NCBI GenBank assembly: GCA_030062745.1
Contig: CP099846.1
Coordinates: 5,084,001-5,148,000, forward strand
DNA length: 64,000 nt
Direction of reading: 5' to 3'
Source: Capitulum mitella
Taxonomy: Eukaryota; Arthropoda; Thecostraca; Pollicipedomorpha; Pollicipedidae
Of the stretch, positions 13,717 through 50,215 are shown in pieces. Each line of letters starts with the position of its first letter. The stretch's first letter is position 1. Under the pieces are notes generated by a model. The model was given only the letters and a program-made list of their open reading frames with translations. It searched no databases and was not told where the DNA came from. Both the position numbers and the translations under genes were made by a program.

Positions 13717-16700
13717 TCACGCCGTCGACATGGGCTCGGCGGCGGGCGTGGCGGCTGCCGGGTCGCCGCCGCCGGTCGGCTTGCCCTCCTGCTTGACGGC
13801 CTCCTTGGCGTCCTCCTGCTTGACGTCCGTCTCCTCCGGAGCTGCCTTCTCCGGCGTGCCGCCCTCCGTCCGCAGCTTCTTCTTCTTGCTGGAGCTGGTG
13901 GGCAGGCGACACAGAGACAGTCACCGTACCGCCCACGGCCAAACGGTGCCGTCTGATCATGAGTCTCCTGTTAGAACGCCCTCGCACTGGATGATGAAAG
14001 CAAGGAGAGACAAGAAGCCCGTGATACCATAAACCCACTAGATCACTTGGAAAAATAACATTTTCCCATTACAAGAACTAAAAAAGAGAAAAACAGCCTG
14101 AAATGCACAACAAATGTGTCGCAAAGCTGAGCTGGCGGCCAATGCCGGCCGGCGCCGAGTGCCTGGCGGTCCAGACAGCGGCCGTCCCTAGTCAGCCGGG
14201 CGGCGCGCCGGCCCCTTGACTCACGCCTCGTCCCGGCGGCCGCCCTCGCCCTCGTCCTCGCTGTCCGAGAACTCGTTGTCGCCCTGGACGCGCTTGTCGG
14301 AGGCACGGATGCTGACGCGCTCGTCGGGCGGGTGCGCCTTGTCCTCGTCCTCGTCCTCCTCCTCGTTCACCGCATCCTCGGGGATGTTCTGCGCCTGCGG
14401 AGGCAGACGGCAAGGGTGCGGTCAGCTCCCGACTCGCAGGGTGGCGGACGCAGCCCCCCTACACGGCTCGAGCAGCACAAAACCATGCCACAAAGGCCAA
14501 TGCTGATGTAATCAAGAACCTTGACATAACTAGAAAGGGATGATAAAGAACTGTTGGGCCTCCGAGTTCGGAGCACTTGCGCAGATCATTCCAGGTTGCT
14601 TATTTATGAGGAAGGAATGCTTCTCAAGGCAATACGAAACCTAGATTTCCTGCCTCCAAATGGTACCTCATGACTTTCCCTTGAAGAATATGTCTGCCAG
14701 AATTACATGTTTTTACAAAGATACTCTTCAGTTCATGTAAACGTGTTATGAAGACCGCACAACGAACTCTCGTTAATTGGCAACGCTGCAACTGACGGAC
14801 GAGCCAGGCGATGACAGTTGACCAACAAGTCACAGTCACGTTTCTGGCCCTTCACAGGCCCATGGCACCACAGAAGTGACCGAAGCACCCTGCTCCGTGA
14901 CAAAATGCTAGCCGACACGCAGAACCACTTGAAACGAAGGTCCATTTCAAAAGGCCGCAGCGGTCTCGCTTCGCATCTCACCTGCACTCCTGGTGCGTGC
15001 GGCAGCATGCGCAGGTTCTCGAACAGGCGTGTCTTGATCTTGTCGAGGTACTCGGTCGTGTTCTGGTTGGCCATGTTGGACGGGCTGATGTGCAGCTTGA
15101 AGTCGGGCCCGAAGTACTCGAAGTAGTCGTTGTACGGCAGCTCGTTGGCCACGTCCACGTTGAGCGCCACGGCCGTCTCGTAGGTCCAGCACCGCGCCAC
15201 GTTCCGGATAGTGTAGCCGCCGCCACCCAGCAGCAGCAGCGGCAGGTTGTACCGCTTGATGAACTCCACGCACTTGGCGTGGCCTGCGGGGACGGGGACG
15301 AGAGCGTCATCCATCGCTGACCACACACAGATCCTTTACTGTTGGGTCTTTAACAGGTCAACAAACATCTTACGAAGATAAAAATGGCTTACCTTTCATA
15401 TCAATGAGATGAGTCTTCACGCTTTGGGTCCAGAACTGGACGCATTTCAAAATCGCGCAGCACTGACTGCGTCACACCAGTGCGAACCGGGACTCTTACC
15501 AGAGTCGTGAAAATGCTTTGATGACGGCGCTGCGGCCGCCGACCCTGTGACCTGCCTCCGAGAGTGATGTGGACACGACCCAGTCTGTGACCCCGAGGGT
15601 GTGGTCGACGCAGCCGAGGCCATGATCCACCTCTGATGGCGAAGCTGACGCCGCAGACGCCATCACCCGCCTCTGAGGGTGAGGTCGACGCCGCCCAGGT
15701 CGCGGCCCACCTTTCAGGGTGAGGTTGAAGCAGCCGAGTCGGTCCCCGGAGAGGGAGTCGGCGCCGCACTGGAGCACGATGGCCGACGGCTGGTACGTCT
15801 CCATCACCTTGGACATGATCGGCACAAAGATCTGCTCGTACACCTCGTCGTCGATGCCGTCACGCAGCGGGAAGTTGACGGCGTAGTACTTGCCGCGGCC
15901 GGCTCCGATGTCCTGCCGACGCGGACGGCGACGTCACGGAGAACGCAGGCGGCGCAGAGAGGCGGCACGCCAGCCTGAGAGCCGTCATCAGCGGTACACT
16001 CCAACCAACGACTCGCCATCAGCGGTACATTCCAACCAATGACTCGCCATCAGCCGTACACTCCAACTAACGACTCGTCATCAGCGGTGCACATCCGGCT
16101 GACCAGCGACTGGTCATCACCGGTACAACAATCTGACCAGCGGCCCGCCAACAACAGTACAACGCCATGTAATGCAAGATTACACTGTGAAATGAAGAAA
16201 CACTGGGTTGAAGCGAAATTCGTATGCATCTGTACACGGCACAGTGTCCATTAAAACCGTCCCCGCGGGCCGCCCCGGGTGGTCGGTCTCCGCTCAGAGG
16301 GGGTCGCAGGGTAGACGGCCGCGTCTCGTGCCCACTCACCCTCAGGTCTCCGGTGCCCGGGAAGTATTCCCCGTACTTGTGGAACGACACGGTCATCACG
16401 CGGTCGGTGGTGTAGAACGCCTCCTCCACGCCGTCGCCGTGATGGATGTCGATATCGATGTAGAGCACGCGCTGGTGGTACTTGAGCAGCTCCAAGATGG
16501 CCAGCACGATGTCGTTCACGTAGCAGAAACCCGACGCCTGCCAAACAAGATTGGGCGGCTCAAGCGTCCAACCAAAAACGAAGGATATTAGTCACTTTAC
16601 AACGGAGATTTTGCAACCCGGATGGGTCGATTTTTTGCGTTTTTCATCCTTACCCTGGACGATCATTAACCGTTCCCAGCGTATGTTTCGAATAATGCCT

Positions 16701-19700
16701 GTACAAATGTGTACTGACTGTTGCCGATTTCTTCAAAATTGTGACGATCTCGAATGAATTTCTGCCCAGAAACCCGTCACTTGAACGTCTTTCAGAACCT
16801 CGACGTGCTAACAATCCCTGAGACATTTTGCGGAACAACGTTACTACATATTTCCATCAGTCGCTATTACAGCTCTTCACCGACCCCGTCGATGGGATAA
16901 GTCCTGACAGTCAGAAGACCACGACCCCGACAACGGCTGATTTTCAGGCCGAGCGCAGAATGAAGCCGGGAACCAGGCAGAATGAGGCCACCGACACCCC
17001 TCCCTCGGCTGCCCCCGACCAACTGAACAGCCATATCTCAGACCGGCCGTACCGTACCTCACACCTCCGGACCTCACCTTAGGCCAGCCGGACTCCACTC
17101 CAGACCGACGGACTGTATCTCAGATATACCGGACCGTACCTCAGACCGGCCGTACCGTACCTCACACCTCCGGACCTCACCTTAGGCCAGCCGGACTCCA
17201 CTCCAGACCGACGGACTGTATCTCAGACCGCCGGATCGTACCTCACACCTCCGGACCTCACCTTAGGCCAGCCGGACTCCACTCCAGACCGACGGACTGT
17301 ATCTCAGACCGCCGGATCGTACCTCACACCTCCGGACCTCACCTTAGGCCGGCCGGACTCTACTCCAGACCGACGGACTGTACCTCAGACATACCGGACC
17401 GTACCTCAGACCGGCCGGACCGTACCTCAGGCCAGCAGGACTGTACCCAAGACCGGCTGGGCTGTACCTCAGACCTGCCGGACCGTGCCTTAGACCGACC
17501 ACGCCGTACTTCAGACCGGACCTCAGACCGCCGGGGCGTACCTCAGACATATCGAACCGTACCTCGGACCGGAGGACCGTACTACAAACACACCGGCCCG
17601 TGCTTAAGACGGACCGGCGCCGTACCTCGGACTTTTTGGCGTGGTGGAGGCCGCCCGCCCAGTTGACGGCGATCTCGGCCGCCTGCTGGTTCAGCTTGAC
17701 GGCGCCGGCCACCGAGCCGCCGGTCGACAGCTGGCAGAACTCGTACAGGCCGTCGAACACCGGACAGTCCTCGCCCACGTTAACTGAAACGCACCCGACC
17801 GGCGTGTTCAGCCAACATCAACGGAAGGAAGCTGCGGGAGGAAACTCACGGAAAATGAAGGGACACGTCACCGACGGGAAATTAACGACAAATGATGAAA
17901 AACTAACAATGAATAACACTGTGAAAACACAGTGATGATGGCACTATGGAACAAGCATTTCGCATTGTATGGGGAGGTGTAAGTCAGGAAGATGTACCTT
18001 GTTCCAAGCATCAGCAAGTCTTAAATGTGATGAATGTATCGCAACGCAGCAATGCCAGAGACTTACGCGGTTTAATATTACAGCAGATCAAGTTGCTGCA
18101 CAGACGGCCAACTGCGCCGCACACCAGAGATGTTACCACAGAGGACTGATTACTATCTGTTACACCTTTTGTAGTGTAAGCTTTTGTAACTTTTGTAGAG
18201 TGCCAGGTACTCTGGAATGACGCAAAGCCCATTCCACACAAAAGGCTCCAATATTCAGAGTCGAAGGGAAACTAACAGTGTTTAACATACGATCTGTTAT
18301 TATCAACAAGAACCTCTTACAAAAATGAATCAATAGAAAAGAAAGCCCTACATTACTCACATCTCTGCATCTGTTTGTTGTACTCGGACATGTTGTCTGG
18401 CCGAATGGAACGCAAGAAGCGAATGTAGTCGTCACTATGGAACTTGGTCATCTCCTCCTGAGTTGCCTTGTGAGGGCGCTGCCAGGCAAAAGGCGGTTCA
18501 GCACACTCAGAACATATCAGGTCGTTAAGCACACTCGTCTTGCATCCACCTTTACCCCTGACTTTTCCTATCCGTTTTATGCAAACCAGCATTTATGCAA
18601 ACCATTCGGCCTTATCTCATCATTATATTGGTACCGCAACAGACAAGCTAAAAATTAGACCATGCAAACTGGCCACATGGCCTTATCCCATCACCACTGC
18701 AAAGGACAAGCTACAAATCTGGCACATGACAGCTGAGCTGCCAACTTCACTTCAACACTCTACGCAAGTGTCAATGAAAACCATGTGGAAAAATGCTCAG
18801 AATCTGCAGTGATGAGCCGAAACCACTTAACAAACTGCCAGCTGACAAAAATCGCCATTTTCCTGGAATTCATTTCAGCTGGTGATGGCGGTCAATGGCG
18901 ATGTGACAACTTACGTATATCTCCATCTTTCTGTACAGGCCATAGTTTAGCAAGAGGTTATGTGTCATGCGTATTCTATGGGGCTTCATGGGATGACCTT
19001 GTCCATAGTAATAATTTCCAACATCGCCTGAAAGAGAAATCGGGCAAAGTTACATCAACCCGTATTTGTCACACGTAATCGGCAGTTCCTGTAATCGGCA
19101 TCCCAATTCGTCGAGCACTGGTCTTCCCGCCTTGACAAGGCGGGTTCGGGTCGCCCAAGCACACGGTATTTGGCGCCAAGGTCTGTGGGCGCCTGGATCG
19201 ACGAGGGTCACGTCAGCTACCGTGCGAATGTGCCGTTCCTGGCGGCACGTTAAATTTTCGTCGTCAGACCGTCAGATGACAAGGTGAACCCAAAACATGT
19301 GATCGGGCGCGAAGGGATTCGTACAATATGTTCCACATAGCATGGTCTCTGATCATGAACATCACCATACACATTACTGCCAGAAATACATAGCTTAAAA
19401 CAGTGCAGTACTCCAAGAACCACGTATCAGCCACTTCTGATCCCATACCACAATCACGTGGAAATACGTTTGTGCTACTTCTATCTCTGAGATGCACTAT
19501 TCTTAATTTTTTTGTTACTTTTTAGCTACACATGCAAATGCTTCATTGCATGCACCAACCTGGAGACTGTTTTAAGCTGTAATCGAAGAAAAGACCGTCA
19601 GGGGCGGATCCAGGATTTCGCCGGGGGGGGGGGATGGCGAATGGTCAGCGTGCCCCCTCCCCATTTTTCTTCTTCAGAGGTGAGAAAAGCGTGAACACGC

Positions 19701-22700
19701 GCGGTTTCAGGAACAAATATGATTTTTTACGATAGAAGATTTGAAAAATTCAAGCACATCACCTTACTTCAGAAAATTTTCGGTTCTGTTGCATGACAAA
19801 AATAGCGGGATTTTAGGCGGCTGCGTCCTTTCCTCTAAGATCTGAAATCCTGTGTCCGTATCTGACAGCTCTTATATGACTGGCCAGGGACGGCCCAGGA
19901 GCTCCTCTACCCCTCGTAGTTCTTTTTTTGCCAGCTTAGGTCTGCGAAACTTTGGCTCCTAGCAGTTACAGGGACACTTTTGGTGGTCTAGGGGCCCTCA
20001 GTGGTATGTAAGGGCCTCTAATGGTCTCACGTTCCTTTCACAGTTCCGTGTCCCTCAGGACGTCTCAGGTGCCCATTCGGCAGTTTCAGGGACAACTTGG
20101 ACAGTTGCAGGGATGCTTTAGCCATCTCGGGACCCGTCCTGTCGTCCCTTGGACATTTCTGCCGTCTAAGGAGCCCCTCAGGCAGTAACAAGGACCCTCT
20201 TTAAGTCTCTATCTGCCGTGACACAGGCGCAGCAGTCTCAAAGGCCTTCCTCCAGCCGTCTCAGTGGACCCATGTTGTTTTACGTGCCTCTCTTGTCGTC
20301 TCTGGGTAGCATTTTTGCCATCTCAGGGGACCTCTGGCAGTTACAGACCTTTTAGCAACCTCAGGGCCCCTGGGCAGTGTTGTGGGCCTTCTGAACGTCT
20401 CCTGTGGCCCCCATGGCTGCGTCAGTATCTTCCTCTTTACCAGAGTATACCTGGCAGTCTTATCTAGCCATATCAGGGGTCTTTGCTGGTGCTTCAGGGG
20501 CCTCTGAGACCTTTTTCAGGAACCTTTTCTGTGCCAGGAATCCGCCTAACACACTCGGGCGCCTGCTGGTCGTCCAGGAGCCCCATGCCGTCTCAGAGGC
20601 CTTCTTATTGTCTCTGCCCTCGCAGGGGCGCTTTTGACCTTTTTGGCGGTCTCAAGGACCCTCTGCCGTGTAGGGGCCCACCAGGCCATCTCAGGACCCA
20701 CCTGACCTTTTCGGAGTTTCGTAAATGCATCAAGAGCCTTTAGGTTTTCAAAAGGATCAAAATATCCCATTTAGGGCCCCTCTTGATGTTGAGATAATTG
20801 ATGAATCCCCATTGAAATGGCCCCTCAACCTGGCCGGGGGGTTCCTTACGTCATCCTGAGCACCCCCTTAGGGTCTTGCCGTCTCGGAAACCCCTCTGGA
20901 ACTTTTCGCGTCTTAGGGACCTTTGCTGTATTGGGGCCCCTTACAGTCTACAGGCTATGCCACAGGCTCTTCTGTCCATCTCAGGGGCCATCTTGCTGTC
21001 TCAGGGTCTCATTAACCTTCCCCGGGGCCCTCTGACTGCATCAGGAACCTTCAGCTTTTCGCACAGGCCTGTGAAACCAATTTGGGACTCCTGTCACATT
21101 CCAGGGACACCTACGCCGTCATGGGGACTCGGTCATCATTTTGCCATCCCAGGGGCTCTATAATCCTTCTTGTAGTTTCAAAGGCCCTTTGGGAGTTTCA
21201 GGGACCCTTGTATCCATCTCAGAGGCCATCTAACCCTCCCAGAGGCCCCCTGACTGTATTAAGAACCCTTCAGGTTTCCAAACAGGACCCATGAAGTTCA
21301 TAAAGAACCCCTTCCAGGCCTCTTTGGAGCCCGAGAGGGGCCTCTTTCAGGCCTCGGGAGGGGGGCATCACCCCCATGCCCCCCACACCACACTGCAGAG
21401 AACAGAGCTGCAAAGCACCAATTTAAACTCATTCTTTGCCATTTAGGTTTATTCAGATGGTAAAGAGCTATGATGATATACAGAAACACACATTTTTTGC
21501 CCAGAGCATTGACAGTTGCCAACCTTTCTGCCTGAAGGTTGGCCGAAAGTGATATGTTGCAATACAACTGGCCACCATATAATTAAAATGGATAAAACCA
21601 ATGTTACTTTATATGTGCACAAGTGATCAACCACACAGTGGTGAATATTCTGCCCAATGACAAGACCTGAGTTTGAAAATCATATGCACAAAGCTCATGA
21701 GTCTTTTTGTGTGTGTGCGTGTGCGTGTGCGTGTGCGTTTGCGTGTGCGTGTGTGTGCAACAGAGGTTTTACACTGGCCAATAAGCTAAAGGATTGGGCC
21801 CTGTCACAATTTTGTATAGTTTGCCCATGAAATGTCCATAGTAGAGCTGCTGCCTCTGAATAGGTGATCATTAGCTCACTGCTAAATATTTCACTTCATA
21901 TATGATATCTTAGATATGGAATTAAAAAAAAAACTAAATGCCTGACCTTTAAAGATTCTGGGGGCTGATGTTTTAAATGAAGTGGGGGTTCATCACAGCT
22001 CTGTCATCCAGCAAACCTGAATGATAACACAGAGCACCAGCTCTGTACTCAGGTCAACAGCTAAAAAACTGGCTGACAGATGCATTAGCCTGCTACTGTG
22101 TTCTCAATGCATGCAGTGATTTCAGCATACCAATGTCACTCCCCCAACTGTATTTCTCACCAGGTACATCAAAAAAGCAGTTTCTAGTCCTATTTTGTGA
22201 TGAGCAGCAAAATATTACCACAGTTTTGTTGATGGCAGGATGTGGTCTGTTACCAGCACTCTGAATATCACCCTAAAAAAGGGAAACATGCCCAAGATAC
22301 CGTACTCAAAATCAGTGGCAGTGTGTGAAACCATGGAAATAAACCTGTCCGACACACTGGAGGACACGTGGCCCATGATATGTGGTACTGGTGTTATCAG
22401 TACCAATATACCCATTAATATACCTAGCTTCATGAATTTTAATGACATTTATTTCATTTATTGCACAAAATCAGTACCAATATGATTTGCTTTCCTGAAC
22501 AAGACAGCTGTGATGCATTGCATTAAAGGAAGCAAATTAACCAACATATGGCAGTGTTGCAAAATTCAGTTTTGGTCGGGGCGCAGGAGTGAAAATTTAA
22601 CAGGATTTCAGACTAAGGTGTTAAAAACAAAAAACCATTTGTGTCAGAATTTTCAAATTATGACAATGCATCCTGGACTGATGTGAAGTCATACATACCC

Positions 22701-25700
22701 AGGCATCATTCACAATCACTTTTACCTGTTTAGTAATATGGATGCAGATGATTTAAACATCACTTATCTGGCTAGGTCTCAGAAAAAATCAAGAATCACA
22801 TCTGAATCCAATCAAGAATCACATCTGCATGGTACTTCATGATGCAAGAGACAATGCTTGACACAATTTGATTTAAATGTACTTTTACAGTGGTACTTCA
22901 TCACAAAAATAGCAAAACTGGCTTAACAGTTATGGAACATATTTCAAGCTCATGTTAGTCCTTGGGCTCATGGCTGACTAGAACACTTCTGGAAAATATT
23001 CCAGGGAAGTTGTGGTGCTGAAATCACAAAAGCCTTCATTTGCACTATTTTTACTGCACATCTTTTGGTACCAATATGCTTTGGCAAATATGTGACTTGC
23101 TGGAGCTGTGAGAAGCTGGAGGCCTTTGCCTACAATACCAAAATTTTGGTAATGGTTGGGCAGGCATCAACTCACCCTAACTGCTTGCTACCTGCTACAG
23201 TGGGTGGCAAGCAATTAGGGTGTGGCTGACCATGTATGTGGCTGGTGGCTGGGTAACTAAAGGACTTATAGACCTACATTCCACACTCACTTGACTGGGA
23301 CATTCTGCCACCTTTTACTGATTGCAGAGGACATTCACAGGGCTCATGCCCTGTGAATGTTGCACAGCACATGCAATGCAGCACCAGATGCACAGTATAG
23401 GACACTAGAGGCTGCAGGCCAATAAAAGGGTGTGGTCAAACTTGGTTTTGTCCAGCAAGGAACTTGGTGCCATACAGCACAGTACATTATGTGATATCTC
23501 AATAGTCTGTGCTGGGCCATGTTTGTACTGCAAAAGGTTCATACAAAAATGGTGTGTAAGAAAAAAGGTTTGTGAGGAAAGGGGTTTTTAACCAAAGGTT
23601 TGTAAACTTTGAGTTCATATCATGGAAGGTTGGTATGAGAGAAGGAATGGACCTAGCTGTGACTTAAAACAGTGACTTAGCTTAACCTACCTGAACCTAA
23701 CCTAAACTTACCTAACCTAAGCTCTTTACTGGACCAAGCCAAGGCCAATCACACCCTTTATCAATCTGCAACCTCTAATACCCCATACCCAGTGCCTCTG
23801 GCCCAAACCCAGACCAAGCCTTTTCCAGTACAAATCTTGCATGATACAACCCTTATAATTATGGACATTTGACTATGAGACTTTTCTTACACAGACCCCT
23901 GACTTACAAGCTTTGGTCTCTTTACCCTTCCTGAGTCACCTGAGATAGCATATGGTCATCTTATTCCCTCCTTTACCCACCAATGGTGTGAGTTCAATGC
24001 ATTGCAATGCAATGAACTCAATGCATTGTGAACAGATCATTTAATGTTTTCACTAGACCCTGTTTGCAATGCCACTGTGGCAGGTGATGGAAGGCTAGGG
24101 TGAGTTGATGCCTGCCTGACCATTACCAAAGTTTTTTGCAAAAACCAGAAAACAATATACAAAATGTAAATGCAACAAATGAATGAAAGTCACATGCAAG
24201 GCACAGTCTCAGGGAAACCAAAGAAACTACAATTTCTGCAGAAGCAGCAAAAGTGATGACTAATCTCAAGGAAATCAGTGATTTCACTGCATGCCTTAGC
24301 CCACATAACCTTTGTTCAAAACTATATCCTACCTAGCTGCATAAAACCTTTCTTCTTGTTCTGTCATTAACGTGGTATCCCGTAGGAATTAAGAAACCAG
24401 ATGTGTTCAATTTAGCTAGTTTGGAAAACTATAGATTGGTGGTATATTGCATATTTACCTTTTCACAGCACACTTTTGCCACACATATGATGCAGAAGAG
24501 CACATGAACTTGCCTATGAAAGCAAGACATGATGACACTGCAGGCATTATTTCTGAATGAAATGGTGTTATATTTCATTGTAAGCAAACATGGCCAAAAA
24601 TGGTGGCACCATCTTGTTTAGACTGTCTTTGCTCCAAAGATGCCCTATTACTCCACAATATTTGATGATCTAATCCGTAAATGATATTAGAGGCTGCAGG
24701 TCGCTAAAGGGACGTTTATGGGGTGTAATGATGCGCCAAAGACACAACCTCACAATGGAGGCAAGGCACATGATATAAGATGCTGCAGGCCAATAAAGGG
24801 TGCAACTGGACTAAGCTCTAGGCTATGTTGTGTATTGAAATGGGTTAGGTTAGGTCAGGCTAGGTTGGGTTGGGCTGGGCTAGGTTAGGTTAGGTTAGGT
24901 TAGGTTAGGATAGGAATCTTGTTAATCTTGTGTATTTTTCATTTAGTCAGGTTATAATGATGTCACCAGAAGGCCCAAATACCTCAACCTTGGGAACTGC
25001 CCTTTTTTAATTTGGGCCATGCACCACTTTTTTCTGCTTGTCTGACTTTTGCTGGAATTCCATGATAACAGATTCCAAAAGGGGCAATACCCAAGGTCAT
25101 GGTATTTTGGGCCCAATGACATCATCAATATAACCTAACTTAAGGAATGCTCAATGAGATAACTAGCCTAGCCCAGCCTCACCTTACCTAACTTAACCTA
25201 ACCCTACCAAACCTAACCTGACCTAACCTAACTAATTTGGATGAATGATCTAATCTCTGACAGACAGAGCCAAGTCCAATCACACCCTTTACTGGTCTAT
25301 GCCCTCTAATATCCTATACCGCACCTCTGGCGTGGAGTTGTACTTTTGACATAATGACACCCCATGAACATCCATTTATTGGGTTGTGGACTCTAGTATC
25401 ATTACCTGATAACATCATCAAACACTGCATGGTAAATGGGGCATCCTTGGAGCAAAAGCAGAGGAAACAAAATGGTGCAGTCCATTCCTGTCCCATTTAC
25501 TTGTGGTAAAATATGACTTAATTTCCTTCTGGAACCAAACTGGTAGTGTCATAATTTCTTGCTTTGAAAGGAAAGTTTATGAGCTCATCTGTACTGTGTG
25601 TATAGCAAAAGTGGTCTGTGAAAATGTGAAAAAGTGATGTACTGCATGAATTTATTACCAGAGAGTCCCAGCAGAAATCAAAGACACCAGTGGCACAGAA

Positions 25701-26137: not shown

Positions 26138-26140
26138 GTT
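26130..26140 (-). promoter_or_regulatory. YY1/Pho-type motif over the HDAC1 start codon
   Basis: On the minus strand AACATGGCGGC matches the YY1 consensus AANATGGCGGC exactly, and its ATG is the HDAC1 initiator. In animals this motif often sits just downstream of transcription starts. The match is seen; its use is inferred. Confidence 0.5.
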
Positions 26141-27436: not shown

Positions 27437-29417
27437 ATGTTCAGGAGACAATTGATTAGTTTCAAGCCCTGCATAAGTCAAGTAAGGGGCTTACTGAAGA
27501 AGTCCAGTCAGTTTGGAAACTCAATCATTTTGCTACAGGATGGACTTTTTGTTCAAGAGCTGCCTGTGTTGGTGCGACATACAAGTGACCATTCATTTAT
27601 CATGGGGAGCTTTGATCCAGATTATGGTCAGCTGGTGTCTTCCAACAAAAACAGCCTTAACAAAGCTTCTGGTGGTCCCAAGTCACAGGAAGGGTCAGAA
27701 CATGCAACTGCTGTGATTTCCCAAGATGAAAAGGAATTTGTAGAGGCTCTCAACAGGACAGAAAGAGTGTGGCATATTTATTCACTTCTTGAAACTGCCA
27801 CTACTGATGGAGTCACACCTGCAGTTGCCCTACATGCTCTCATTAGAATTGCTCATTTAGAGAGCAGAGAAGAGGAGGCAGAGGCAGAGAAAATGTTTTC
27901 AAGACAAGCAATGGTTCAGAAGCTGATGAAGACAATTGTTGATGGAAATGATGATGAAGTTTTGGTCAACACATTCATGTTTATGAAGGATCTGAAAACC
28001 TTTGGGAGTCTGACTGTTCTTTGTGATGAGCTCAAGGCTGTCTGCATTGACAAGGGAGAATCTGGCCAGCTGAGTGTAAAGCAGGTTACTCAGCTCATTA
28101 AGGGACTTGATTCTGCTTGTGGACCTAAGTCTCCCATAGCAGATCAGCTGTGGCAAGGGATCAAGAACAATGCAACCCAAATAGATGAGGAAAATATAGG
28201 AGAAGTTTGCTCAGTTCTCCCACTATTGAAGGAAAGTAGAAAGGTGGTATTTCATGCCGTAATGAATCAGCTACCCAGTTTCTGGTGGAAGCTCTTGCCA
28301 GAGACTGTCTGCATTATAATGGACTCTGTGTACACTGCCCAACTTCAGTCATCTGAACTGTCTCGGATCCTCGCCCGCTGGACATCCCTGGCTCTGCATC
28401 AGCTGCATGAGGAGCACCTGCAGGTCGCGCTGGCCTATTTCGTGTGGACCGGACACTGTGACGACACGCTGGAGCGGGCCGTGGAGCGCTACTGCCGCGC
28501 CCGGGGCCGCTCCGAGCTCCAGCCGGCCACCGTCGCCGCCGTGGCCAGCTTCGCGCTGCGCTTCCGCGTGCGCAGCGACATCCTGTTGGAGACCGTCAGC
28601 GACCACTTCGTGACGCACCAGACGCGTTACGGCGCGGCGGCGGCGCCGCCGGCCGGCCGGCTGGCGGCTGCGCCGGGCGGCGCCGCCCCCGCCGGCCGAC
28701 GTGACGGCTGTCGTGCGCTTGCTCGGCGAGCTCGACTATCAGCCGCGCAACCGGCTCGGCTTCTTCGCCGCCGTCGAGAGCCACCTGAGCGAGCACTTCG
28801 CGGCGTTCGCCCCCGAGGATATGCTGGATATCTGCCTGGCCTGCGTCTACCTGAAGCGCTACCCGCTCAACTTCTTCCGCCAGGTGTTCAACCCTTTCTT
28901 CCTGGAGCGGCTGCCGACGGCCGACGGCGTGGCGCAGCGACTGCGCACCAAGCTGAGCGTGCTGGACTCGGCGCTGACGGCCGAGTGTCCCGGCTACCGT
29001 GGCCCGATGCTGCCACGCGACATGAACGCGCGCAGCCTGCTGCGTGACGCACGCGCCGCGCGGGTGGCGCATGCCCTGGCGCCGCAGCTGCGCGCTGTGC
29101 CCGGCGTCAGCGAGGTGGAGACCGGCCAGCTGCTGTCGCAGCTGCCACTGCACGCGCTGTACGTGCCCGAACTGAGCTGTCGGCGCGCCGACGGGCTTCG
29201 GCTGTGCCTGTTCCTGAACGCACCCGAGCTGTACGAGCGGCGCGGCGCGCGGCCGCTGGGCGCCGTCCGGCTGCGGCGCCGGCAGCTGGCGCGGCTCGGC
29301 CTGGCCGCCGTCGACCTGCCGTTGCGGGAGCTGGCGCAGCTGCTGGTCCACCCGGCGCTGCTGCGGCGACGCCTGGCCGACGCCGTGGCCGAGGCCGAGC
29401 CGGAGCCGGCGACCTGA
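27437..29417 (+). CDS. FAST kinase domain (FASTK/FASTKD) family protein, one frame break
   Basis: FASTK-family proteins are mitochondrial RNA-binding proteins that act in processing and stability of mitochondrial mRNAs. The ATG at 27437 opens MFRRQLISFK, a basic amphipathic start fitting a mitochondrial presequence. One long frame runs to about residue 400 (helical repeats, WHIYSLLETA, ILARWTSLALHQLHEEHLQ, ALYFVW-like helices). After about 28614-28700 the matching frame becomes +1: VVRLLGELDYQPRNRLGFFA, then MLDICLACVYLKRYPLNFF (FAST_1/FAST_2 type) and a C-terminal RAP-like segment, LRRRQLARLGLAAVDLPLRE, ending TGA at 29415-29417. Together about 660 residues, the usual family length. No GT-AG intron fits the switch, so an indel in the GC-rich tract (assembly error or true mutation) is likely. 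Which FASTKD paralogue is not clear. Base composition changes from AT-rich to very GC-rich within the gene near 28350. Confidence 0.85.
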
Positions 29418-31152
29418 GGCAGCGCTCCGGGACAGTGGCTGACGCTCAGGAGGACCCTGAACCGTGTGTCGTCGGCTTCTGGGTGGTGTGGCGCTGGCTC
29501 CCGGGCGGTGTGATGTCGACTCCTGGACCGTGTGACGCCGGTTATGGCGCAGGTGGGGCGGAGGACTACCACCATTGTCCCTTGCTCGCCGCACTGGCGG
29601 TCACACCAAGGCTGTCAAATATTTTGTGATACAAAGATGCCAAGCGTGGCAACTTTTTGTGAAGAGCTTTGTTTTGTGTAAGTCAGCTGTACTGAGGAGT
29701 CTGTGGCGGCGAAGCGCAGTTCAGTAATGTAGCTGTCACTGACGATCACGGGGGGATTATAACGCATGGTGAATTGTGAGCTGTAATGTCAGACTGGAAA
29801 GAAGTGTGTCATAGAACCTTCGTCTCTGTTATATTAATAGAGCAGAATGCAGGCTGCAAGCATTGGAAGCGTATAGAAGACCGAGATTCACGAGTAAATC
29901 TTGGCGTGGTGACAAGCGGAAACACGGACAGTGTCCGTGATACAGTCTTTGAAGAATCATAGACACCCGGCCCTTTTGTGGCTTATTCTTAGGCGTTACA
30001 CGTAAATGGGCCTATACTGTCCAGAGTCACGAACGGCAAGAACGGCAGCACCTTTCGCGCATTGCTGAAAACCAGCGAGCGATGTAAAGTTGTGGGTGGT
30101 AAGCGTACAATGGAAATACCCACTGGGGGGACCTCTCCCCCTCCCCCACATTCGATAACTTTAAATTCGAGTTTCTGAACGTTGACTGGAAAGAATGAAC
30201 CGAAAATCGTGGTTTGCTCCTCCCGGTTTTTGTCAGAAAAGTTGCACTCCTGATACAGATGTGTTTGTCCATACGCCATCACGGTGGGTGGTTCCTGGGA
30301 CGGGACCGGAGCATACCGCCATTGTCACAACAGGTGGTAACAGGAGTGAGACCTGAGCTGTACGTCACTATCACAGTAGGTGTCTACGGGAAAGGGACAA
30401 AAGTCTACCGTCACTATCACAGTAGGTGGTAACAGGAACGGGACCGGATCCCATCGTCACTTTTACAATAGGTGGTGGCAGGGACGGCACCGGGTCCCAC
30501 CGACCGGCGTCGTCATAGACTTGCCTTCGCTGGAACTGCATAGCCTGATAGCAAAATGTTTCCCTTTCTGTCCCACTTGGCGACAATGGCCATGTGAAGA
30601 AACGTAAGAGGTAATTATGAACAGGCGCCAGAAACAACCAAGAGTACCAAGAGCATGGATGTCGATTTCTGTGAATGATTGGGGGGCCGAGCCGAGGGCC
30701 GACAACCTAACCTCCCCCAAATGTGGGCTTCTCAACGGATTTAGCCCTCTTTACTCTGACCAGCGGAAATTTATAAGTTTTTTTGCTACTATTTATCAAA
30801 AGAAAAATTGCATTTTCCACATGTATTCGTGCATATATAGATCGAAGATAGAAAGATAGATAGATACATCGCTTTAGACTTTATTCTTTACTTTCCTCCT
30901 ATCTTTTATCTACTGTGGCCGTTCTTTTCGTTATTATTACTCATTTCCCTTTAAAACCGGCAAAATATATTTGGGGGAGCCCAAACCAACATTGGGTGGC
31001 TCCAAATCAGCATTGGAGTGGGACAGGGCCTTCTAAAAAAATGCAAATAGACACCCTGGTGGAGAGCAGGTCCTTTACGTGATCACCGTTATCATTGCAT
31101 GGCGTGATCGCCATGTTGAACCCATTGCTTTCTAGCAACATCAAAGGCGTTA
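29418..31152. other. Region downstream of the FASTK gene
   Basis: Holds the presumed 3'UTR, a minisatellite at 30280-30500 and AT-rich sequence. No further exon is recognised. Confidence 0.5.
30280..30500 (+). repeat. Minisatellite, about 55-65 bp unit, three to four copies
   Basis: Units contain CACTATCACAGTAGGTG followed by GTAACAGGAACGGGACCGGA and vary in length. They lie about 0.9 kb past the FASTK stop. Confidence 0.75.
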
Positions 31153-33608: not shown

Positions 33609-33642
33609 GCCGCGCCGCCGCCGCCGCCGCCGCGCCCGGCCA
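33609..33642 (+). repeat. CCG trinucleotide repeat
   Basis: About ten CCG units with one CGC interruption at the edge of a CpG-rich island. Confidence 0.85.
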
Positions 33643-35404: not shown

Positions 35405-35753
35405 GAGACGTCTGTATCCGTGCCCTGTGTATGGAGGCCCGTGCCCTGTGTGGAGGCCTGTGCCCTGTGTGGAGGCCTGTGTCCTGTGTGTGCAGACCTG
35501 TCTCCTGTATGTGGAGGCCTGCGTCTTGTGTGTGGAAGTATGCGTGCCGTCTGCGGAGGCCTGTGTTATGCGTATTAAGGCCTGTGTTATGTGTATTAAG
35601 ACCTGTGTGTCGCATGTGGATGCCGGTATTCTGTGTATGCGAGCCTGTGTCCTCTGTGTGTAGGCCTGTGTTCAATGTGTGGGAGCCTGTGTCCTGTGGG
35701 TGTAAGCCTGTCTCCTGTGTGTAGGCTTGTGTCCTGTGTATAGGCCTGTGTCC

Positions 35754-35785
<32 letters not shown>

Positions 35786-36062
35786 AGGCCTGCATCCTGC
35801 GTGTATAAGCCTGTGTCATGTGTGCGTAAGCCTGTGTCCTGTGTATGTTGAGCCTGTGTCCTGTGTGTGGGCATGAGTCCTGTGTGTGTAAGCCTGTGTC
35901 TCGTGTATGTGGAGGCCTGTGTCCTGTGTGTGAAGGCCTTTGTCCTGTGTGTGGGCCTGTGTCCTGTGTGTGCGAGCCTGTGTCCTGTGTGTGGGTCTGT
36001 GTCCTATGTGTTCTGGCATGTTTCCTGTGTGTGGAGGCCTGTGCTCTGTATGTGGAGGGCCC
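35405..36062. repeat. 21-bp-periodic minisatellite (GCCTGTGTCCTGTGTGTGGAG) with TG tract
   Basis: About 30 units of 21 (sometimes 18 or 24) bases. Since most units are multiples of three, several frames on both strands stay open; the minus strand reads as a heptad like TQDTGLH for 286 codons. A pure TG run sits at about 35756-35782. Nothing suggests translation. Confidence 0.9.
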
Positions 36063-36179
36063 TTTCTGGCCCGAATCGGCGCCGGCGGCGGCGCACCAAT
36101 CACCGAGAGTGACGGCCAGTGAGCGCCGCGCAGCGACGGACGGCCGCCGGTGGCGGCAGAGCAGGCCCCCATCCCCGCC

Positions 36180-36480
36180 TAATTGAATGGAGGATCGGCC
36201 GACACGGAGCCGACCGCACACTCATCCGAGCCCGCTCGCCTGGAAGCAAGAGCGCTAATCGGTTTATTATACACCACGGCCGGCCATTAAGGCGGCGCGC
36301 TGCGCGCCGGCGGACGCGCCGCAGTTGTCGCCCGGGGCGCGGCCCATTTCGGGCGAGCGCTCCCCCGGGCCTCGGCGGCCGGGCCGGGACCGCCGCAGAG
36401 CGCCGGCCGACGCTAGGTCGTCGGCTGATTAGGCCGGGCAGCGCGGATCGCGTCCGCGCTGCTCAGCTCAACTCGATGGC
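36180..36480. promoter_or_regulatory. CpG island with homeodomain-type TAAT sites
   Basis: CCTAATTGAATGG, GCTAATCGGTTTATTATACA and GGCCATTAAGG in GC-rich surroundings. Composition and motifs resemble a developmental enhancer or orphan promoter, but no gene is attached to it. Confidence 0.25.
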
Positions 36481-39285: not shown

Positions 39286-39350
39286 TTGTCAGCCGTAACC
39301 GTAACAGCCGTAACCGTAACAGTCGTAAACCAGTCACATTGTCAGCCGTA
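39286..39350 (+). repeat. CCGTAAC short tandem repeat
   Basis: GCCGTAACCGTAACA recurs with small changes just outside the left TTAA of the next element, ending GTCAGCCGTA. Confidence 0.75.
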
Positions 39351-39354
39351 GGTG

Positions 39355-42429: not shown

Positions 42430-44733
42430 CGTTATGTTAGGCTTCCCAGTTGGGTTTTATATTTTTTGGCCCGATTTAAAGGGTTTCTTATTGGCTTTGC
42501 GTAACGACGGTTTCTTGAAAGGTACTGCTCCTACAACACTAAAAGAAGGAATCATTGTGCCGTTGCCAAAGCCTAATAAACCAAGAGAACTTATAAAGTC
42601 GTACAGATCGATTGCATCGCTGAACGTTAGCTACAAGATTATTTCAGGCACAACAGCAAACAGATTAAAGAATGTCCTCAGGATAGTGACTGACCCATGC
42701 CAGTCCGCATTTCTGCAGGGGAGATTTATTGGAGATAACATTAGAATGCTGTATGACACCATACAGCTAATGAAAAATGAGCAAATGAGTGTGATCCTGC
42801 TGAGCTTGGACATAGAGGCAGCTTTTGATTCAGTAAGTTGGCAGTTTATTCAAAAAGCCCTTCAAAAATGGAACTTTCCCTGTAATATCATAAGGTGGTT
42901 CAATACCTTGTATGTTGGGTCTTTTGCAAGAATCTTGTATAATGGACATTTATCAGAGAGAATAAATCTGGAGAGGTCATGCAGACAAGGTGACACGTTA
43001 AACTGTTATCTTTCTGTACTGGTCATGGATGTGCTAGCGAGGAAAATTAAACTTAATAATGGAATCAAGGGGCTAAAAGTAGCCAGTCAAGAGCATAAGA
43101 TCTTAATGTACGCTGATTATGCAATCTGCCTCCTGGAACCAAAGGTAGGTAGTGTCGGGACTCTGTTTCATGAACTGGGATGGTTCGCCAAATATTCGGG
43201 CCTTAGCCCGAACTTAGACAAAACCCAAGCCATGTGGATAGGAGTACCTCACAGGAATGCAGATATTTTTCAGGGAAATGTAAACCTGAAGCTGTGTAGT
43301 GGTTTGAAAATATTAGGCATCACCTACGAAAATAATTTAAAAAGTGTACTAGATGTGTACAATGAAAAGATCAACGACATTAAACGTGAAATTACTAAGT
43401 GCAGGCACAGAAACTTGTCACTGCAAGGAAAAGTAACTGTAATTAAATCGTTATTGATATCCAAGATAAGGTACCTCTTTATGTCAATCCCAAAACCCTC
43501 TCGAAATATTTTGGATGAATTAACTAAAACGTTGTATTCGTTTCTGTGGCATGGGAAGAAAGACAAAATAAAACGTACCACACTTGTAAGGCCTCTAATA
43601 AATGGAGGTGTGGGAATGGTCGACTTAAAAGCATGCATATCAACTCTGAAAATAACGTGGATTCAACCACCGATCACAAAACGCGGTGTCTGGAAAGATA
43701 TTATTGGTTGAGAAGTCAGTAAACACATATAGTTTTGGCAAATGGGTCATTTAGCAATGAGGAGGAAAGGGTTTGTCATCAAAAACCAGTTTTGGAGAGA
43801 GGCTCTTTTAGATTTAGCAGATTTCAAAGAAAACTACGAAATGGGCATTGGCGATATAACTGCTAGCTCTCTCTTTTTCTCGGATTTCACCAAATTCAGG
43901 AAGACCTGGATAAAGAACTGGCTCAGGAAAGGCATTAGAACACTAAATGACCTGCTAAACCCAGATGGATCTCTTATGGCATACGAAGACTTTAAAACAA
44001 CATATGGAATCCAGGCATCGTTTCTGGACTATGGTGCCCTGCTAGACAGTTTGCCTGCAAAGTGGAAACAAGCAAGGGAAAGGAAGAAGATTAGCGAGCC
44101 CAGCATGAATTTTATTATTAGCTTTATTGTGGGTAGGAAGATCCTTATATCTCACTTGTACAACGTTGTTATAAAAAACAAAACAAAAGATCAGGTCATT
44201 ATATGGAAAGGTGCGTGGGAACGAGAATTTCCGGGAACTGAATGGCCTGGTGTATATTTAAACCATAAAGCATCCCCTGTTCAATACAGAGGCACCCGTT
44301 ACGAAATGATTACTAGAACCGTTGCCACAAATACTTTGCTAAAGAAAATGAAAACAAAAGACACTGACATGTGTGAGCATAGTCCAGAGCGAGACAACAT
44401 TTTACATAAGTTCTGGTACTGCCCCCGAGCCCAGAATCTCTGGAATGCCCTGATAGTCTGGCTAAATACAAAACAGCTTAATGATTTAGCAAGGGAAATC
44501 GACAAAAAGGGAATAATCCTTGGAGTTGAAGGCGGCGGGATTTTAAGCCATTTGGTTGGAAGTGCAATACATATGATTAATGCCAAGAGACGTCCTTCGC
44601 TTTTTCCATATTAAGCGTGCTACGGTCAGATGTGGTAAGCGAGTACTACAGTGCTAAGATCAACAATACGCTGGAGAAATTCCATAAGAAGTGGGCTGGG
44701 CTGAATTGTTTAGACGTCGATCTTCGGAACTAA
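42430..44733 (+). mobile_element. 5'-truncated, inactive L1/Tx1-like LINE (ORF2 reverse transcriptase)
   Basis: Remains of a non-LTR retrotransposon ORF2. Homology starts abruptly at GFPVGFY (about 42437), so the endonuclease domain is gone, the usual 5' truncation. Reverse transcriptase blocks: SYRSIASLNVSYKIISG, QSAFLQGRFIGDNIR, LLSLDIEAAFDSVSW, SCRQGDT and the catalytic box, here YADY instead of YADD (near 43110). Thumb and linker follow (GWFAKYSGLSPNLDKTQ). In-frame stops at 43709-43711 and 43736-43738 break the frame, which continues 43742-44614 (RTVATNTLLKKM, then the HSPERDNILHKFWYCPRA zinc-knuckle-like region); a final shift leads to FHKKWAGLNCLDVDL ending at 44733. Clade assignment is by overall look. 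Codon use and AT content differ from host exons. Confidence 0.93.
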
Positions 44734-45598
44734 ACAACGATGGCAGCACCTGGTGCTGGCTGTACCTTCTATCTGCTAGTGATTTTCCCATCACTTGTTG
44801 GCAATGCGTGCCCCGACGGATGTCATTGTTTCGTGTTTGGCCCGTTTACGTTTCTGCGTTTTTTCGTTTCTTGTTTTTTCTTGTCGACGCCTCGTGAGCT
44901 ATTTCTGTCTTGCGCATCTGATATTTCTTGCGAGGAACAAGTGTAGTTTTCCCATTGTACGTGGATGAAGGTGTGAACGTTCAAACTTTCTTTGGTAGGC
45001 AATGCTTTCGCTCCTGCGGCTGGGCGGTGCCGCGTGCGTCCGTCGGCGCCGGTCGTGCCAATGTGAGCGCATGCTATTTGTGATGTCAGGAAATGTTGTC
45101 AGAGATGTGAGTGACAATTATGTCAAAATAATGATAAACTGAGAAGGAAAAAAATTGGTCTGCAAAAAAAGATACGTCAAAACCACAAAAAATCGTTATG
45201 CTAGGTAGTAAATGTACTAACACTGTTGCTATGCCATTCAGCGGATATTACCGATCTTGTTTCGGTGCAGAACTGCAGTTCCCATACCCGTTTAAAGCAT
45301 TAAAATCTAGTAAAATGTTGTAATTCAAAGCCACATATGCCGAATGCTTTCACTTCTGACAGCAGACCGCATACGTCGTGATGTAATACCTTCATGGATG
45401 TTATCTCAGGGCCTTGAGAACCACATAGCCGCCTTAACTTAGCATGGCGATATCTAAATTTGGATACTTTATTGAATTACGGCATCTGAGGTCTTCTGTC
45501 ACAGTCATCTGTAAATAATAGTATGTTGCTCGGCTGAAGATCTCTTTTCAGCGAGCCAAATTCACTGTTTCGCATGTTGGGTTTCATAGTTTCGCATG
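44734..45598. other. Probable LINE 3'UTR and flank
   Basis: No gene. The A-rich stretch at about 45140-45192 may mark the end of the LINE, but a clean poly(A) tail and target duplication were not identified. Confidence 0.4.
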
Positions 45599-46610
45599 TT
45601 AACCCGCGCCCGACTGGCAGTCGGCGTCGTACACAGCCGACTGGGGGTTGCTGATATCCCCCCACCCACATCATCTTGTTGATCGTGCGACGAATCGCGA
45701 ACGATTTGTCGCGCGATAAAAATAGGCATATTTTTGGCAAGCTCGTGGCAAGTAGAGCTTGAAACTTTGATATCTTCTTGCGCTTTTGGAGAATACTTAA
45801 GCCACTTGAGCCCAATATATGCCTTCTCATAGCTGACTAGACGGACCCGAGGAGCTCCCTGGATCTCAAGGGCTGCGATTAATAAAGACTAAGTAAAGGT
45901 ACTAATTCCTTTATTGTCGTGAAACAGGCCTTACCAGTTTGTGTTTCTTAAAACCGGGAGTTCGTGCCATGGTTTTCCAGGTTTGGAAAACTCGGCAGCT
46001 ACCAGTTAACGCTAACGGTGTAGCTTTTTTCGCTGAAGCCCGTTTATTAGCAAACTGTGCAACTTTTTAAACTTTTTGGGCTTACTAAATATTATCAGAA
46101 GCTTTGGGAGCCAGTTCTGCCATTTTATGTTCGATCCAAGTGATTCATCGCCGATTTTCAAGGCTATGCATTTTCGCCCATACTGGTTATTGGTGACCTG
46201 ACCTCAGGTCAGTGGTTGAAGGTCAGTGATCTTTTGTCAAGTGACGATCATTGGAAGGTCTCCATCACCTAGTACATAAAACGTCGGGAAAATTTTTGTC
46301 AGTTTCCGGAAAAAAGACATGTGTTGAAATGGGCTTGACCTAAGGTCAATGGCTCAAAGGTTTCTGAGCTATCTGAGATAGCGAATTTGCCGCACATGTC
46401 AAGGTCTCTAAACCCAGAAAGTTTTGTTTTTATATCTTGTTTTTTTGAAAATAGTACGGAAAGCTAAACTTCTTTTGAACACATGTCCACTGGACCTGAC
46501 CTAGGCCAAATACTTGACCTGAATTAAGACCAAAACCCTGACACGAGATACAAGAAGGATCAAGTAAATTAACAACTCTCCAGTCGATGAAAGTTAAACC
46601 TATTCCTGTG
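45599..46610 (-). mobile_element. TTAA MITE-like element, copy 3, reversed and diverged
   Basis: TTAACCCGCGCCCGACTGG at 45599. Read on the minus strand it is collinear with copies 1 and 2: the CAGCCCTTGAGATCCAGG block, GCTATGAGAAGGCATATATT and the half-site modules TGACCTTAGGTCAAGCCC and TGACCTGAGGTCAGGTCA. The far end near 46610 is unclear. Confidence 0.65.
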
Positions 46611-49258
46611 GGGCAGGTGCGGATTTCCCCTCCCCCTCCTCGTCGATCACAAGAGACTGAATCCGTCGTTATTCAGATACCATATTTGAATGTCCATGAA
46701 TGCATCCATTTCACGTCCAGAATGTCATGAATGAATCCGTTTCTGCATCCACATATTTCAGCTTTAATCTATTCATCTCATCCCGTCCCATTTTCTGCAT
46801 CCGCCTCTGATTTTCGGAAAATGTATTCTGGGAAAATGTACTTGTAATCATTCTGGGAAAATGTACTTGCGACTACAGAGCATCCTTCAGAAACCATAAA
46901 CATGTTTTTCGTTACCCAGAATGGTTTCGTAATTCACACCAATCAATGGCCAATTACCCCCCAAGCACAAGAAACAGTATTTAGATGCTCGATGTATTGT
47001 TTAAGAAATCAGTTATAGTCTCACAAGTGCCCAGCCAAGGCAAAACAACTCACACGTGTCTGTTCAGTCTCGAGATCAGTGACGTACATTTCGGCGCAAA
47101 CATTTCCCCCCATTTTGAGGTCTCTGACTAAGCCTCGGTTAACATTTTGCAAATCCGAAAATGCCTAAACGTGCTTGGAATTCAATGAACTGTTTTCGTT
47201 CCCAGGCAAGCAAACTGGGCAGTAGTATTTCGAGATCTTGGGAGGAATCCCCCATTCATTACGGATTTAGGTCCAGGTAGCAGAACCCGCTCCCTCCCCC
47301 AGATTTATGTCCAGGAGAGCCTCGTAAGAATAGGGCTAATGATTTTATGATGTAGTTTCCTGTCGTGGAATCCTACACTGTTTGTAGCTCCGAAAACTGT
47401 TGCGATTGCTCTTACAACTATTTCATCCAGACGAATCGCATAGCCACTAATCATTTTAGCACGGCAAACTGCACAGAACGCGAGTCATGGGCACTAAAAC
47501 AGATCGGACACTAGTCGTGATCTTTCAACCGCTGAGTGCCTTTTCAGTACGAATGTGCCGCGACGTGCAGCTCGGTGCCTTCGCCTTTGGACGATCGAGC
47601 CGGCAACGCACGGCTCGGCTGGCTTCGACGATACTGCGCCGCAATGCTCTCGGTCCGCGGAACTGCGAAGACGGCCGACCCAGCCTAAGCCAAGCCCTGG
47701 GCCTACAGGGAGGTTGGGCTTTGCTGGGGGGCGAAAACATTAAATCTGCTGAGACCGAAAGAAAGCAGCCTCTAAGTGTGAAAACTTAAAAACGAATGTC
47801 TAGAAATACGGAGAAGCCCTCGTCATGGCGAAAAAGTTTTTTTTTGAGATGCAATAACCAAAACATTTGACCTAAGTGCGTTCAGATGCTGGAGCTCTAG
47901 GAGGCCTTGCCTCCGGAAAATGGCCTAGGGCTCAGTAATGCAATTTCCGACTATATCATGGGAGCCAAATCTTATATTTTTGTGTACGTTTTCCGGTAAG
48001 ATCAGGCGCAATGATTCCAGATAAAACACCGACTCTGTGTTATTCGTAGTGGTCTGTCCGGACAACTAGCACCATATCCTTGTTCGTGTAACGTCTGCTA
48101 TGGTCAGTTGATTGATGCAGCATATAATGAATGCGCTGTCCGCCTTATTCTCTCTTTTTTTCTTCGAGGGCCAGCTGGTACCGTCGCAACTGAGGTCATA
48201 TCCCGATTGCTCCCCGATGTCCTGTCCCTGATAAGCGCCGATGTTCCGTCGCGTGATGATTTTACTGTTTCATTCTAACAGCCTCCTGGCCCCTCACATA
48301 GGGCATCATGTCCTCCGGTGAAAATCCCTGTCACACCATGGACATTTATTTATGCACGCTGGCCACTGCACATGCACACATTCCGCATAGCCAGCCTAAA
48401 TATTGCTGAATACACGATGCTCTGCATTATATCTCTTAATGGAATACATACACTTAGCAAATCAATTTCAACTATTTCGAGAACATCCTGGATCTGTCTT
48501 GCATGTTTGTGTGGCAACAGATTGCAACGTAGAACATTCTTTTGAGTAAAAAAGAGCATCCCGTGGTGACTATCGAAAAATTAGAGAGAATTTTATTGAC
48601 ACTCAGATAAATAGTGTTCGTGCTGGTGACCATCGATGGCGTGAAAGTTAACGGTCGAGTCTCTAAATCAATGGTATGGGTTCCAATTTATCTTGAATTA
48701 TCGTCAGTCAATACCCTAGAGACTCCCAGCACATAGCGGAGACCTTTGTGTAGACGTAAGCCAACCCTGATCCGACGCTTTTCAAAACACTTTTACCGCT
48801 TGTTGTATCGCTGTTTGAACTTTTACTCTTCGTTTGACATACCACCAGCAATGCCTCACATTACCGACTTTCTAATGTAACAGTAATGCCGCGGAGCGCT
48901 GAGTTCAGCACCTTCGTCGTTCCTGGCGTAATCACGCACACTTAACATAACCACAGTGTGACTTTTCAGGGTCACGAAAATATACCATGCAAGTACTCAA
49001 ACAAACCATTGCGCTTGTAGAGTGGGAGCATCAGTCATATTTTTCTCGTCCTCCGGATGCTAACTTCTAGAACGGAAATGTCTCGATGACGTAATGTTGC
49101 CCTTCTCAAGGTGAAATTATGCCATCAGTACAAAGCGTCTTTCATCACTTGTCGTTTAAACTCTTGGGAACACAATGAGATGCCAGCCGTCCAAGTCACT
49201 TCTGCCGCCGGACAAAATGGCGGCCCATCGCGCGGCCGGCGCCTGGAAGTCCCCGGGC
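46611..49258. other. Non-coding region downstream of the bHLH gene
   Basis: AT-rich, with a short direct repeat CTGGGAAAATGTACTTG (about 46829 and 46855). No exon recognised; presumed 3'UTR of the bHLH gene at the right edge. Confidence 0.45.
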
Positions 49259-49981
49259 TCAATCACTCAGTCCCTGCGGCGACGGCGACATACTGAACTC
49301 GGGTCTCACGTCGTCGCCGAGAGAGGGCAGCAGGCCCATCCTGGGCTGCAGGTTGCCCTGCAGGTTGAGCGAGTCGTAGGCGGCCATGGCCGGCGTCGGC
49401 ACGTGGATGCCGGTCAGGTGGCTCAGGTAGGCGATGATGCGCCGCAGCTCCTCGATGGCGTTGCCCTGCATCATGATGTAGTTCTTGCCGAGCAGCAGCG
49501 TGGCGATCTTGCTCAGCTTGCGCACGGACGGCGAGTGCGCGTACGGGATGACGGAGCGCAGCTCGTCCAGCGCGTCGTTCAGGTCGTGCATGCGGCGCCG
49601 CTCGCGCGCGTTCACGTTCAGCCGCATCACCTTGCCGTGGCGGGTCTTCTTGGCCGCCTTGAGCCGGTAGCCGGGCAGCGCGCAGTTCTGGTCGGCCTCG
49701 CGCAGCGTCGGGCTCCGGCCGGACGCGGGCCGCTCGCTTGACTCGTCCAGCCGGCACGCCTTGGCTCGCACCGCCTCCAGGTACGGCCCCAGACCGGTCG
49801 GCTCGGCCGCAGGCTTCGGCGGCGCCGGCAGCCGCGCCTGTGACGCCACGGCGGCGGTCGGCGACGTCACGTCGGCGGTCGGCGACGTCGCGTCGGCGTT
49901 CGGGCGCGGACCACGAGCCGGGGCTGGGCGGATCAGGTCGGAGATGCTCAGCACTGAGCCGGAGCCGTGATACTGCTCCAT
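49259..49981 (-). CDS. Oli: Oli/bHLHe22-type bHLH transcription factor
   Basis: Olig-family basic helix-loop-helix regulator; the Oli/BHLHE22/23 branch acts in neuronal (often motor or interneuron) specification and binds E-boxes as a dimer. A 240-residue frame in one exon. The bHLH domain covers about residues 119-186: basic region [19 protein letters not shown], loop [16 protein letters not shown], helix 2 [19 protein letters not shown]. The short loop and [10 protein letters not shown] are diagnostic of this branch. LLLGKN and MQGNA carry glycines where relatives usually have alanine or another residue. The N-terminus is low-complexity (repeated [14 protein letters not shown]), the C-terminus short ([10 protein letters not shown]). 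The ATG (49979-49981) follows a CTGTGTCTGCAG acceptor-like site by one base, so an upstream exon is possible; the array beyond it copies this junction. Confidence 0.93.
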
Positions 49982-50215
49982 CCTGCAGACACAGGGGGAA
50001 GACCGTCAGCGCCCGATGTGGGTATCAGGGCGGGCTGTTGCACTGCTTCACCCTGCAGGCACAGGGAAACACAGTCAGAGGATGATGTGGGTATCAGGGC
50101 GGGCTGTTGCACTGCTCCACCCTGCAGGCACAGGGAAACACAGTCGGGGTCTGATGTGGATTAGGGTGGGCTGTTGCACTGCTCCATCCTGCCGACACAG
50201 GGGGACGGCAGCGAC
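49971..50215 (-). repeat. 69-bp tandem array copying the acceptor and start codon of the bHLH gene
   Basis: Four units starting near 49971, 50041, 50110 and 50177. On the minus strand each has CTGTGYCTGCAGG followed by (A/G)TGGAGCAGT; the unit nearest the gene is the real exon edge. The farthest unit again has an ATG with eight codons before a stop; the two middle units have GTG. Similarity between units is high (one to few changes in the core). Confidence 0.88.

Follow-up and report, generated by a model that had tools for sequence, protein, structure and literature searches.

The window analyzed here, a stretch of 64,000 nucleotides (C8:5084001-5148000) in a genome of 477 Mb and 16 contigs, contains a histone deacetylase (HDAC) gene in which tandem arrays begin at splice donors, repeat the end of a conserved exon together with its donor and extend into the intron. 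Arrays that start at exon edges recur in other genes of the same genome, and in a sample of its exons, splice donors are enriched about 4-5 fold as sites at which arrays end. A preliminary description of the window had proposed a recurrent process at exon boundaries. The edge-starting arrays of other genes agree with this proposal, but acceptors are not clearly enriched, and the process is therefore better described as one acting mainly at splice donors.

At HDAC donor 15710 (window coordinates; Table 1), the origin of the array's units can be read. The open reading frame at 15499-15933 on the minus strand aligns to residues 206-275 of HDAC2 of solved structures, and yeast RPD3 aligns to the exon across almost the same stretch. 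The donor AAAG/GTGGGC (the slash marks the junction) lies between 15711 and 15710, and the following exon runs from 15283 and opens with HAKCVEF. Two intron copies of the 38-base edge segment retain 26 and 25 identical bases, whereas the remaining two copies of the 40-base unit are weaker and fall under the 24-base cut. Compared with the intron, the 32-base exon end scores 31; none of 5000 dinucleotide shuffles scored as high, the shuffle maximum being 25. By itself, Tandem Repeats Finder (TRF) reported only 15606-15694 and missed the exon copy. Because the coding sequence is conserved so widely (HDAC2, yeast RPD3), the exon is the original from which the intron units were copied. The earlier claim that the array copies a donor edge, takes coding bases as its first unit and grows into the intron is thus upheld at this site. 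In a paralogous gene on C5, presumably HDAC3-like, the donor is shifted onward by a few bases and no array is evident there by eye; that gene is therefore unfit to date the array.

A second donor of the same gene shows the same organization. The upstream intron of the gene, at 16538-17625, opens with 21-base units that hold the donor motif GAG/GTACGG and extend to about 17028, forming a third edge array in the window that was absent from the preliminary description. No second genomic place for this array was found at the sensitivity of the genome search used. A dispersed satellite was considered as the source of the window arrays and rejected: searches that skip common words found no second genomic place for their intron copies, and the only other genome hit was a paralogous HDAC exon.

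To place these arrays in a wider context, exons were located by Pfam family searches of the same genome. The hits used were 20 of 20 for Hist_deacetyl, 24 of 138 for Pkinase, 57 of 61 for Cpn60 and 11 of 129 for kinesin, chosen as being in, or selected for, fetched sequence, with whole-domain kinase hits excluded; 106 of the 112 lie inside fetched DNA. Hits to Myosin (86), DEAD (52) and E1-E2 ATPase (17) were left out. Homology and splice-site weights based on an assumed consensus then gave 154 exon edges, comprising 82 donors and 72 acceptors (81 from CCT, 29 from HDAC, 25 from kinase and 19 from kinesin genes), of which one was dropped for a short flank where 153 are stated. Ninety-two of the 154 edges belong to 46 phase-compatible exon pairs. 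Three of these pairs mismatch the profile by more than two residues (16, 6 and 3) and were kept except in one variant of the within-intron analysis. The limits for calling an array donor-near (-45 to +20) were set after inspection of the data, and the P values given here are therefore descriptive.

When the 17 arrays of 47 introns were placed at random within their own introns, 10 were donor-near against 2.72 expected (P = 5e-5), compared with two acceptor-near arrays against 2.72. Leaving out the window gene gave 8 donor-near arrays among 14 (44 introns; 2.22 expected, P = 4e-4), and removing the three poorly fitting exon pairs as well gave 8 among 13 (41 introns; 2.02 expected). The donor excess was kept under six detection settings (P from 6.5e-6 to 0.008, window edges included), under which P for acceptors ranged from 0.045 to 0.2. 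Moreover, matching for guanine-cytosine (GC) content left array ends at -45 to +20 in 11 of 82 donors against 2.39 expected (P = 4e-5). The GC content of the first intron bases is similar at donors and acceptors (0.66 and 0.63).

Copies of exon edges within introns were also scored directly. Among 156 edges (the 153 sampled and three manually added ones from the window), the 32-mer at the exon edge was copied in the next 330 intron bases at nine (score of at least 26), against 0.37 with mismatched introns; the HDAC donor is counted twice, leaving eight distinct edges among the nine, and without the hand-added edges the count is 8 of 153. Exon-interior 32-mers had an intron copy in none of 156 cases, with 0.35 expected. 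The copy rate is 5% for the last 32 exon bases, 10% for the first intron bases and 4% at +200, and it falls to about zero beyond -64. A self-similarity scan found 84 arrays covering 7.6% of 284,829 bases, whereas block-shuffled versions of 25 intervals gave a coverage of 0.3%. Around the 153 edges, 16 array ends fell at -40 to +20 against about 2.7 expected under uniform density, and none fell at -200 to -40.

Reading of the array alignments, with edges placed by homology, puts the splice site inside the first unit at 8 of 82 donors and 3 of 72 acceptors. One of the eight donor arrays (C2:12425380) is a single duplication, and another begins at a weak donor call (C5:25677051, score 2.3) that may be mistaken; a fourth acceptor (C2:35822073) is supported by only one of four TRF rows. 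Clear cases include two in CCT genes. At acceptor C5:25675778, with units of about 55 bases, there are 11 further copies, of which two match the edge at all 38 bases, and at donor C13:13510149, with 35-base units, there are 13, all listed with AAG/GTAGGG. Kinesin donor C3:976374 has seven further copies and CCT acceptor C14:14835348 has four; additional donor arrays begin at C11:16989214 (HDAC family) and C13:13508439 (CCT). Both bases of the splice dinucleotide are kept in 1 of 3 copies at HDAC 15710, 13 of 13 at HDAC 17625, 13 of 14 at C13:13510149 and, by a loose count, 10 of 21 at C5:25675778.

These arrays are probably best explained as minisatellites born at exon boundaries, with donors over-represented among their starts. 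A stretch of about 20-100 bases straddling a splice site would be duplicated in tandem, creating a local minisatellite, or 'mirage', whose copy number would then grow into the intron, presumably through slippage or unequal exchange. While the intron copies drift, the unit adjoining the exon would remain the functional splice site, and because this unit keeps working, the duplication would be tolerated. Arrays would arise widely in GC-rich DNA, with splice donors over-represented as a starting place. GC content explains part of the donor preference. Acceptor duplications may be more harmful, since the extra AG falls upstream of the genuine one; such harm would explain the preference for donors over acceptors, but not for donors over the intron interior.

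Taken further, splice donors might be genuine hotspots of minisatellite birth in this genome, with an array beginning at about every seventh to tenth donor, although this stronger version is held only tentatively. Several observations weigh against a special role of donors. Arrays become about ten times denser with higher GC content, and the donor excess weakens as the limits are narrowed, from 8 against 2.3 up to +10 (P = 7e-4) to 6 against 2.1 up to +5 (P = 0.012) and 5 against 1.89 up to 0 (P = 0.03); arrays reaching at least 3 bases into the exon at a donor number 5 against 1.77 (P = 0.025). The unit contains no donor in three of these donor-near arrays, out of 11 (at +8, +14 and +18). GC-matched acceptors, with 5 of 71 against 2.10, are not significant (P = 0.06). 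The sample is small, CCT genes supplying 81 of the 154 edges and six of the eight donor-near arrays outside the window; furthermore, the limits were picked post hoc, and the edges derive from homology and an assumed splice consensus rather than from transcripts.

Coverage of exon edges by arrays points the same way. TRF arrays cover 4.5-5.4% of the 220,829 bases outside the window, depending on setting, and 5 of 154 edges lie within arrays of at least 30 bases (no margin), where random positions would give 9.6. The scan that the preliminary description had proposed, for repeats overlapping an exon end by at least 15 bases compared with random placement, gave no enrichment when run on the sample with 15 bases required on both sides (3 of 154 edges against 8.1-8.3). 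It is a blunt test, as a functional edge is possible only close to the end of an array; since TRF also missed the HDAC exon copy, edge coverage was rejected as a sole measure. Between the edge and about +100, the intron copy rate stays level at about 8-11%. Together with coverage below random, this level rate would, taken alone, fit arrays that are scattered throughout the DNA and removed from exons.

That fit is the substance of the rival closest to the favored explanation: minisatellites arise uniformly in GC-rich noncoding DNA, some touch exon ends, selection prunes those that reach into exons, and donors are not special. The absence of an excess in edge coverage, the flat copy rate, the strong link of arrays to GC and the marginal excess of edge-spanning arrays at donors are all as it predicts. 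However, the clustering of array ends at donors holds within introns, under GC matching and under all six settings, while acceptors of similar flanking GC show no clear clustering, and this plain background is accordingly rather unlikely. It is far less probable that the arrays mark newborn introns, created by tandem duplication of an AGGT-bearing exon segment as in the Rogers model. Several units do contain AG/GT, and intron gain by tandem duplication is described, in excerpts of the respective papers, for Drosophila (PMC2891723) and potato (PMC4974935). The model expects the repeat at both intron ends, yet none of the 17 arrays, in 16 array-bearing introns, comes within 20 bases of both edges, and the HDAC array at 15710 stops well ahead of its acceptor.

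Marginally less probable again is that rows of donors are functional, the extra donor-like sites recruiting U1 or permitting regulated alternative donors. Decoys are dense: with the 10th percentile of the 82 sampled donors taken as the minimum score, there are 22 in the HDAC 17625 array, 11 of them stronger than the true donor, and 38 in the C13:13508439 array, against 0.39 per 100 bases in array-free introns. In 6 of 10 arrays, a raw count showed GT or AG to be kept above other columns. Selection acting on these splice dinucleotides was nonetheless rejected: with a control for central position, they lie above the mean of other positions in five of six scorable arrays (two of eight could not be scored), yet only at the 19th-78th percentile of unit positions. 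In addition, six of the eight donor arrays lack any in-frame, stop-free decoy, the other two being HDAC 17625 (at +63, +84 and +126) and C13:13508439 (11 sites). Exon-edge arrays are, from sequence, a possible source of splice isoforms.

Boundary-born arrays of this kind are already known from amphioxus, where excerpts of PMC3087553 describe 'mirages' in Adh3 and the globins BflGb6 and BflGb9 as minisatellite-like tandem duplications of an exon-intron boundary. They occur at the 5ʹ or 3ʹ ends of introns, with Adh3 units reported as 10-72 bases, and were proposed as a source of new introns (PMC3087553). As described there, the unit spans the exon-intron boundary, as it does at HDAC donors 15710 and 17625 and, among the sampled edges, at 8 of 82 donors and 3 of 72 acceptors, and many but not all units keep AG/GT, which is also the case here. 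Unlike the amphioxus arrays, those described here come from a genome that is probably of another phylum and show a donor bias; moreover, length variation and regular splicing are reported for amphioxus, whereas the present arrays are known from one assembly's sequence. What is added to the known phenomenon is probably a second phylum, along with a rate and the donor bias.

Other systems, again as excerpted, share parts of the pattern. Intron gain under the Rogers model (PMC2891723, PMC4974935) likewise involves tandem duplication that includes splice motifs, but no sampled array here spans to both intron ends, and there is no evidence that the introns are recent. GC-rich chicken genes have GC-rich introns filled by local tandem repeats, but excerpts of that paper (PMC6792250) make no mention of units that include the exon end. 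A Caenorhabditis elegans minisatellite is tied to alternative splicing, not to boundary duplication (PMC4039745, in excerpt), and a term search of the Daphnia tandem-repeat paper (PMC3152781) met no word starting with 'splice'. Judged by titles, the literature searches made here yielded no survey of donor-anchored arrays and no barnacle case.

If the donor bias holds genome-wide, it would point to a local mutational process tied to splice sites and a steady supply of duplicated donors, raw material from which exon ends could shift and new introns arise. The arrays would then also serve as ready natural constructs in which to study the choice of the correct donor among near-identical neighbors. 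Were donors true hotspots, rows of donor copies would be present in a good share of introns, some of the copies equaling or exceeding the real site in strength, providing a natural test of the spliceosome's choice of the first donor.

The second array noted in the preliminary description lies upstream of a bHLH gene and was said to copy an acceptor edge including coding bases. The 69-base repeat itself is real, since none of 3000 shuffles reaches the match between the junction and the upstream sequence. However, the array shares only about 11 bases (GATGGAGCAGT) with the putative exon, fewer than the 15 that the preliminary description had set as a threshold. Both the acceptor, CTGTGTCTGCAG/GATGG, and the start codon are putative; the gene could begin in an unspliced exon. 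Near this array, at 49842-49903, three 21-base repeats lie in the bHLH coding frame, each encoding about seven residues (SPTADVT-like).

Table 1. Arrays and associated gene features, in window coordinates.
Feature	Position	Strand	Basis or remarks
HDAC1/2-type exon (DIGAG...)	15711..15912	-	Pfam PF00850 and HDAC2 alignment, splice edges; 3ʹ end is the array's first unit
40-base tandem array	15550..15741	-	starts within the exon, ends at about 15550 in the intron; 31 exonic bases and donor, then about 4 diverged intron copies
HDAC intron, 427 bases	15284..15710	-	array on donor side only, stopping 266 bases short of acceptor
31-base array	15986..16092	-	within HDAC intron 15913-16339, about 65 bases from acceptor, not edge-anchored
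21-base-unit array (..GAG/GTACGG..), about 28 copies	17028..17632	-	same HDAC gene, starts at donor 17625
bHLH open frame (MEQYHGSG...), putative first coding exon	49262..49982	-	PF00010, translation, edge; acceptor inferred
69-base array, 3.4 copies, CCCTGTGTCTGCAG/GATGGAGCAGT-like	49972..50202	-	upstream of bHLH ATG

Elsewhere in the window, large arrays at 35418-36057 (21 bases, 31 copies) and 30278-30502 (46 bases, 4.9 copies) have no neighboring exon identified. Interstitial arrays of the (TTAGG)n type, the arthropod telomere motif, occur at 23683-23720, 24843-24914 and 25177-25232 and suggest that the DNA comes from an arthropod. A family scan of ten open frames gave a match in one only, a FAST kinase-like frame at 28617-29414. 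On the plus strand, a reverse transcriptase open frame (PF00078) at 42431-43708 is followed by a frame without a family at 43736-44611, a retroelement-like arrangement, and an open frame at 2505-3059 carries an RNase P/MRP p29 domain. Outside the window, myosin head matches to the profile stretch at about 376-444 occur in a row, four at C16:5450234-5453643 and three at C15:16425920-16428593. Insect muscle myosin has mutually exclusive alternative exons, and these repeated matches are probably exons of that kind.

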